A stretch of DNA of 64,000 bases from Deltaproteobacteria bacterium RIFCSPHIGHO2_01_FULL_43_49. Its GTDB lineage: Bacteria; UBA10199; SPLOWO2-01-44-7. Below are positions 16,268 through 17,380 of the stretch, piece after piece. The translations under genes and the position numbers were made by a program. Under the pieces are notes generated by a model. That model was not told the DNA's origin. It did not search any database and saw nothing but the letters and a program-made list of their open reading frames with translations. The stretch lies in NCBI GenBank assembly GCA_001798075.1, contig MGRG01000008.1, forward strand, positions 372,001 to 436,000, written 5' to 3'. Numbering within the stretch: the stretch's first letter is position 1; each line of letters begins with the position of its first letter.

Positions 16268-16294
16268 TTATCGACAGATCTCGATTTTTGTTGC
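16268..16294 (-). promoter_or_regulatory. Shared promoter-like motif upstream of the 763-residue protein gene
   Basis: On the minus strand GCAAC (16290-16294), then 14 bp beginning AAAAATCG, then GTCGATAA (16268-16275). The start codon is 16 bp further on, leaving a leader of about 10 nt that contains AGAGGA. The same two boxes at the same spacing precede the genes at 17332 and 24424. Confidence 0.6.
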
Positions 16295-16297
16295 TTC

Positions 16298-17332
16298 CTA
16301 CAAGACCTTCCCGAAAGTGATTTTCACGATAGTGGTTTCTGGGCCAGATTCAACTTTCATATTCCAGCCCAGCAGCTCCAGGTAGATATCTAAAATTTCA
16401 TCATTCGTACGATCGGGGGGCCAGGATGAATGAGTCAAGGGAGATTCATGTGCTTTGGTGATGGTGAGAGTTTTGGGGAATTTTAAAACCCAAGTCTCAT
16501 TTTCCCAACTTTCCTCTGGTCCAAACCAGCGAAGCCATTCTACCAAGGCGTAGGCAAGTTGCTTTTTGCTGGTTCGAACAGAATAACCTTTTCCGTTTGA
16601 AACTGGGACATAGTCACGAAGATTCGGGTCTGGAATTTCATGGATTGCGTTTTCCCAATCCATTGGCTGAATAGTTGGCAAGTCGCTAAGGTTTGAAATA
16701 CTTGCTTGTAAATTTCCAATGAAACTTTCCGCCATTTGGGAAGAAGAAGAGGCGAGAATTAAAGTCAAATAATAAAAGTGATTTTGAACATCGTTTGAAA
16801 AAAAACTACGCAACAGTGTGCGAAGTCGTTTGAATTCTTTACTTAAGTCGTCATGGATTTTTTGGAGCTCTTCAAGCTGTCCTATCTCTACGGCACAGAT
16901 ATCGGCATAGGTTTGAGAACAGAGGCGTTCAACCTCACGATGCAGTTTTTTTGCCAAATGGATTTGTATGTCTGCTGAAAGGGCCACTGTTTCTTTCGGC
17001 TCTAACCTTTTCAAATCAACATAGGGATAACCAAAGGCTTTTCGAAGAGCCGCGGCAAAAGAATCGGCGGATTCAAAACGTTGCGTACTTAACCTTGTTT
17101 TTTTCTGAATGGCTTTCCGAGCCTCAGGTGGCAACCCTTCAAATACGTTATGGAGTTGTACTAAAGCGGTTTGTGCTGCGTCGGGATCCTCTGAATACGT
17201 TGCTTTGATAAATGGAACAGAATTAGTTTGCAAGACAGTGCCATAGTCTGGTGCCACTTCAGCAACGGCTGCTTGAAGGGTGCCAACATGAGTGGCTAAC
17301 CCTTGTAGAATGAAAATATCTGTCAAAATCAC
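16298..17332 (-). CDS. Protein of unknown function, single-module paralog of the 763-residue protein
   Basis: The 344-residue product shares with its neighbour the order LEPKETVALSADIQIHLAKK (about residues 110-130), a helical region with ELQKIHDDLSKEFKRLRTLL, then SVRTSKKQLAYALVEWL and a tail SSWPPDRTNDEILDIYLELLGW. This order suggests tandem duplication. The N-terminus MILTDIFILQGLATHV lacks a standard signal peptide. The start is GTG with GAGGAAGG upstream. Its own copy of the shared promoter motif precedes it. I do not recognise the family. Confidence 0.72.
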   Translation of the reverse strand: MILTDIFILQGLATHVGTLQAAVAEVAPDYGTVLQTNSVPFIKATYSEDPDAAQTALVQLHNVFEGLPPEARKAIQKKTRLSTQRFESADSFAAALRKAFGYPYVDLKRLEPKETVALSADIQIHLAKKLHREVERLCSQTYADICAVEIGQLEELQKIHDDLSKEFKRLRTLLRSFFSNDVQNHFYYLTLILASSSSQMAESFIGNLQASISNLSDLPTIQPMDWENAIHEIPDPNLRDYVPVSNGKGYSVRTSKKQLAYALVEWLRWFGPEESWENETWVLKFPKTLTITKAHESPLTHSSWPPDRTNDEILDIYLELLGWNMKVESGPETTIVKITFGKVL

Positions 17333-17353
17333 AATTGTACCTTCCTCAACCTA

Positions 17354-17380
17354 TTATCGGCAGGTTATCAATATTGTTGC
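17354..17380 (-). promoter_or_regulatory. Shared promoter-like motif upstream of the 344-residue protein gene
   Basis: GCAAC (17376-17380), 14 bp, then GCCGATAA (17354-17361) on the minus strand, followed by GAGGAAGG and a GTG start. Upstream of GCAAC the sequence is TTAA, as at 51756. Confidence 0.6.

Follow-up and report, generated by a model that had tools for sequence, protein, structure and literature searches.

A class-wide promoter motif in UBA10199 bacteria and a FliA-type sigma factor of a type III secretion locus as its probable reader

The DNA analyzed here (the window) is a 64-kb stretch of contig MGRG01000008.1, positions 372,001 to 436,000, from Deltaproteobacteria bacterium RIFCSPHIGHO2_01_FULL_43_49 (GTDB lineage UBA10199), and it carries a promoter-like motif, GCAAC-N14-GYCGATAA, immediately upstream of three genes whose products have no Pfam family. 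An earlier reading of the window, made from the letters without database searches (the sequence-only reading), had proposed the motif as an extracytoplasmic function (ECF) sigma promoter of a dedicated regulon. The three exact sites are present where that reading had placed them, as compared to 0 expected from shuffled sequences, and all of them are on the minus strand, 16-21 nt 5' of the starts at 16251, 17332 and 24424. The first site (GCAACAAAAATCGAGATCTGTCGATAA, 16268..16294, 14-bp spacer, 32.5 bits) precedes a gene of 763 aa (13960..16251), a paralogue of the 344-aa target with a GTG start (16298..17332) that follows the second site (GCAACAATATTGATAACCTGCCGATAA, 17354..17380, 32.8 bits) in the gap before a divergent alanine racemase. 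The third (GCAACTTTTTTTGCAATCCGTCGATAA, 24444..24470, 36.1 bits) lies in the gap before a divergent purD and precedes a gene of 388 aa (23258..24424). Two more degenerate copies with a 15-bp spacer had also been listed; both exist, and one of them is plausible. At 51756..51783 (plus strand) a probable variant promoter, GCAAC-N15-GACGAAAA, is followed by CTATAGTAGG, an initiator-like sequence as at the other sites, and by a probable target gene without Pfam family (51801..52901, plus strand, ATG at 51801). The other copy, GCAAC-N15-ACCGAAGA at ~43400..43427 (minus strand) upstream of a 680-aa M49-like peptidase, has 3 mismatches and is a weak and doubtful candidate. A marginal site (GCAACCTTTTTGGATTCTAGCCGAATA, 63548..63574, plus strand, 2 mismatches, 15.2 bits) has a start codon 11 nt downstream.

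A genome-wide motif search had been set beforehand as the check on these observations. The exact motif was found in 26 copies in the 2.23-Mb genome (G000), as compared to 0 for the reversed pattern, and with up to 2 mismatches allowed the whole genome gave 197 matches vs. 67 controls. Scanning with a weight matrix (≥22 bits) gave 85 sites vs. 0 in the reversed control, with bimodal scores, in 624 kb of fetched stretches that were chosen around motif matches. The consensus of the 26 exact copies is (A/C)GCAACTTTTTT-N7-TG(C/T)CGATAA, with a weaker CTATAGT-like stretch downstream, and the spacer length was 14 bp in 76 cases, 15 bp in 6 and 16 bp in 7 (controls 0, 0 and 1). The sites are enriched before gene starts and are not randomly placed: 73% of the 85 strong sites have a same-strand start within 100 nt, as compared to 6% of random positions, and 13% vs. 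80% are located inside predicted open reading frames (ORFs). The very short leaders first noticed in the window were common to the targets, with a median of 25 nt from the -10 box to the start codon genome-wide. In 14 of 90 targets (~1/6, e.g. G000:C14:59516 and C8:136082) the start codon comes only 5-10 nt past the -10 box, and because of these short distances some target messages may be leaderless. A dedicated regulon thus lies behind the motif, as had been proposed, and its identity as an alternative-sigma regulon is strongly supported. A GTGGCCGACGACCGAGGCCGGGAACCCCG-like repeat, possibly a small RNA or a repeat element, was common to three loci (L019, L022 and L026), just downstream of promoters without a close long ORF.

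The motif is conserved in the class to which the bacterium belongs. Every one of the 46 class genomes contained GCAAC-N14-GYCGATAA, in 1 to 56 copies, as compared to 4 control matches in total; of 14 genomes from elsewhere, 1 had a match. When TTT was required directly after GCAAC, the stricter motif was found in 39 genomes, all from the same class. A pattern with a spacer one base short gave 5 matches in unrelated taxa and is usable only as a chance control. Three genomes of one family, G003, G004 and G005, which are 91-97% complete, contain 50, 16 and 14 exact sites, respectively.

The sigma-28 promoter consensus of E. coli is TAAAGTTT-n11-GCCGATAA (PMC2859248). Written in this notation, the motif reads GCAACTTT-n11-GCCGATAA, with a -10 that matches sigma-28 at 8 of 8 positions and the same 11 bp between the octamers. 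The motif resembles ECF promoters in the AAC followed by a T-tract at its -35 and in its AAC-N16-CG distance. Two ECF sigmas, adjoining Ser/Thr kinases, are among the five sigma-70 proteins of G000, together with RpoD, an RpoH-like and a FliA-like sigma. Reading by an ECF sigma, the view first taken, would resemble the HrpL control of plant-pathogen type III secretion systems (T3SS). No link was found between the motif and the two ECF sigmas of G000, which adjoin their kinases elsewhere. G003, G004 and G005 each encode two PF04542 proteins, RpoD and a FliA-like sigma that itself matches this family, and no ECF sigma was detected. Because the only sigma-70 proteins detected in these motif-carrying genomes are RpoD and the FliA-like one, the ECF and RpoH-like sigmas are excluded as required readers, unless a divergent ECF sigma below the PF04542 cut-off exists there. 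Moreover, the number of sigma-70 family proteins varies from 2 to 15 per genome over the class while the motif is constant. With the -10 and the geometry being sigma-28-like, we rejected the ECF sigma on the gene content of these three genomes and regard it as a very improbable reader. Separately, near-duplicate loci with an ECF sigma and a Ser/Thr kinase were observed at G000:C4:3755 (L030) and C6:121994 (L031), both accompanied by a similar small gene in divergent orientation; the nearest curated family to these sigmas is a Planctomycete-type ECF.

RpoD is the only other sigma-70 protein in G003-G005, and the motif could be an RpoD promoter assisted by a class-specific activator that binds the GCAACTTTTTT part. 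We consider this quite unlikely, since CGATAA is a poor RpoD -10, since the tight 14/16 spacing and the sigma-28 geometry suit direct recognition of the -35 and -10, and since all through the class there is a conserved sigma of the sigma-28 type.

The gene for this FliA-like sigma is located at G000:C7:28533-29354. Orthologues with 55-81% identity were found in 41 of the 46 genomes of the class, and G032 has a diverged copy. Its best curated match was TIGR02479 (FliA_WhiG; E=7e-37, 127 bits, under the 190-bit cut-off), and the nearest solved structures in PDB were WhiG and FliA. In the tree it groups with FliA and separately from RpoD/RpoH, forming a clade of its own with long branches. Region 2.4, which recognizes the -10, and the -35 helix LSKSWTSRLHARAL are nearly invariant over the class, and the recognition helix is KSWTSR instead of the canonical FliA/WhiG ESRVSQ. 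Of four flagellated members of the class, three have kept ESRVSQ in their flagellar FliA, and E. coli FliA is also of the ESRVSQ type. The sigma is a diverged relative of the FliA/WhiG group that fails the canonical sigma-28 -35 and recognition-helix features. As a within-genome control, canonical TAAA FliA promoters were looked for in the flagellar clusters of 4 flagellated relatives, where no clear sites were seen.

In G000 the sigma gene heads a run with a SctI-like rod gene, a FliG-C/SctK-like gene, SctL and SctN, and the order sigma, SctI-like, SctK-like was found in every neighbourhood read over the class. The SctI label is our own reading from the position and the C-terminus; no family model matches. 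The cluster encodes SctN with T3SS_ATPase_C, SctL/FliH, FliM-, FliN- and FliK-like proteins, FliP, FliQ, FliR, YscJ/FliF and FHIPEP, i.e. an export apparatus, an ATPase and a ring protein distinct from the flagellum, as in a non-flagellar T3SS locus. G000 has one FHIPEP gene, and therefore no flagellar export gate; flagellated relatives have a second, beside their own FliA. In at least 21 of 27 genomes, a sigma-54 box of the -24/-12 type (TGGCAY-N6-TGCA) was located ≤200 nt 5' of the sigma gene; the same loci, 194 kb in all, contained 2 other matches. An NtrC-type activator gene (receiver, AAA+ and Fis-type helix-turn-helix) adjoins the sigma gene divergently in G000, and RpoN was found in 44 of 46 class genomes. 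In family f19 (G030 and G035) the sigma-54 box precedes the sigma gene though the RpoN domain was not found.

Autoregulation by a 14-bp site directly 5' of the sigma gene was considered, and no such site was found in 27 genomes. Instead, a promoter with a 16-bp spacer was found farther 5'. This version of the motif, with the same boxes and a G+C-rich spacer, occurs across the class (1 class control) and precedes T3SS apparatus genes at G000:C7:19173, 32147 and 34496 and at L198, L208, L199 and L200. It is found in G000 before the run containing YscJ/SctJ, in relatives before FHIPEP/SctV, a FlhB/YscU-family gene and lytic transglycosylases, in ~10 families 5' of a 140-aa T3SS gene heading a run toward the sigma gene, and in family f10 5' of the gene in the SctI position. 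G003, with RpoD and the FliA-like sigma only, has 11 sites with the 16-bp spacer. Tentatively, and at somewhat less than even odds, we suggest a class-wide two-spacer code for a private FliA-type sigma, where 16 bp and G+C-rich would mean machine, 14 bp and T-tract would mean cargo, and the length and make-up of the spacer would determine in which order or how strongly the genes are expressed. A role of spacer length in timing is a prediction from this distribution.

Pfam families are scarcer in the targets, with 53 among 83 target proteins vs. 172 among 83 neighbouring non-targets. The proposal that all targets are unfamiliar proteins holds for the three in the window and for most of the others; it fails for some that have known domains (Ser/Thr kinase, PP2C, ADP-ribosylglycohydrolase, sulfatase-modifying-factor-like, subtilase, GGDEF and SLT). 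Few targets are paralogous to one another, and recent duplication can therefore be ruled out as the source of the motif, i.e. the promoters are not copies carried by duplicated genes. Three lipoprotein-like targets (G000:C11:155575, 174652 and 183038) are very similar to each other, with two promoters nearly identical and one gene cut to 83 aa, and are a recently duplicated family. As compared to neighbouring proteins, the first 30 residues of the targets are depleted of Lys/Arg (p=1e-9) and enriched in Ala, Gly and Ser/Thr; such N-termini would be compatible with T3SS signals, and are no proof of them. The assignment of sigma and promoter may be right while most of the dispersed targets act at the cell surface, in signalling or in predation and are not T3SS cargo, as suggested by the lipoproteins, subtilases, GGDEF, OmpA, PilZ-like, kinase and phosphatase genes among them. 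This is a realistic possibility that we nevertheless hold to be unlikely, as most targets are without known family, signal-peptide-like starts are few (7 of 81 targets vs. 40 of 366 in the background, by a crude rule), the N-termini are charge-poor and the sigma gene belongs with the T3SS cluster.

The best explanation for the motif is that it is read by the FliA-type T3SS sigma under the control of sigma-54, to which we give a probability of about 0.85. It builds on the observed motif with its class-wide conservation and its position before genes, on the synteny of the sigma gene and the T3SS, on the sigma-54 box and on the apparatus genes behind 16-bp promoters. The sigma-54 promoter and, in this family, the adjacent NtrC-type activator would switch on the sigma gene, and the FliA-like sigma would then guide RNA polymerase to the GCAAC...GCCGATAA promoters, a recognition predicted from the -10, the geometry and the sigma content of the genomes. 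Promoters with the 16-bp G+C-rich spacer would drive the secretion apparatus, and those with the 14-bp T-tract spacer ~85-90 scattered genes, of which many are probably T3SS cargo (effectors); the very short leaders would pass straight into translation. That the T3SS would export most of the targets is a prediction that goes one step beyond this.

Several observations weigh against this explanation. The -35 GCAACTTT agrees with sigma-28 at 5 of 8 positions and differs at 3, and lacks the TAAA(GTTT) feature, and by gene content RpoD would also qualify as the reader. In family f10 the recognition helix is the same, yet sites are few and the TTT extension is nearly absent from them. G020, G021 and G022 have kept the motif and no sigma orthologue was found; SctN was likewise not found, and because it is absent along with the sigma, the whole T3SS cluster may be missing from these assemblies. 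No secretin, needle or translocon was seen among the scanned proteins, where none was systematically sought, and the lipoproteins, GGDEF, OmpA and SLT proteins among the targets are unlikely effectors. All of the evidence is drawn from sequence comparison.

If the explanation is true, candidate secreted proteins can be catalogued by their promoters in dozens of uncultured genomes for which homology is nearly silent: the promoter code covers ~100 mostly uncharacterised genes per genome and ties this candidate list to the T3SS machine. It would also mean that a sigma of flagellar type can be put to new use as the factor dedicated to a secretion machine other than the flagellum, and would offer a natural test of a change in sigma-28-type -35 specificity (TAAAG to GCAAC) alongside that of the recognition helix.

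Parts of this system have counterparts elsewhere. The 'needleless' T3SS* of Myxococcus xanthus is a T3SS-like sorting platform without an identified needle (PMC12075869, a text in which the word sigma is absent), and the locus here likewise has FliM-, FliN-, FliG- and FliK-like parts with the needle not identified, a likeness judged from the listed parts. Chlamydia, a non-motile T3SS bacterium, has likewise kept sigma-28 and sigma-54, but there sigma-28 was located at two genes by ChIP-seq (PMC12282069, PMC7482065), whereas here ~100 sites are found and the sigma gene is inside the T3SS cluster. In Pseudomonas syringae, HrpL and the hrp-box, driven by HrpRS and sigma-54, likewise represent a dedicated sigma for a T3SS and scattered cargo genes under sigma-54 and NtrC-type activators (PMC5263251); HrpL is an ECF sigma, whereas here the sigma is FliA-type and the promoter is another, and the likeness is one of function. 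WhiG of Streptomyces and Rubrobacter is likewise a flagellar-clade sigma serving outside motility, although it retains TAAA/GCCGATAA (PMC8325347), while the -35 and the system differ here. The FliA/sigma-28 flagellar regulon, sigma-54-controlled in many bacteria, has in common with the present system a FliA/WhiG-group sigma, the GCCGATAA -10, the octamer-n11-octamer geometry and a sigma-54 box before the sigma gene. Its -35 is TAAAGTTT and its genes are flagellar; here the -35 is GCAACTTT, the recognition helix is changed, G000 has no second (flagellar) FlhA, and the promoters belong to a non-flagellar T3SS locus and to non-flagellar targets.
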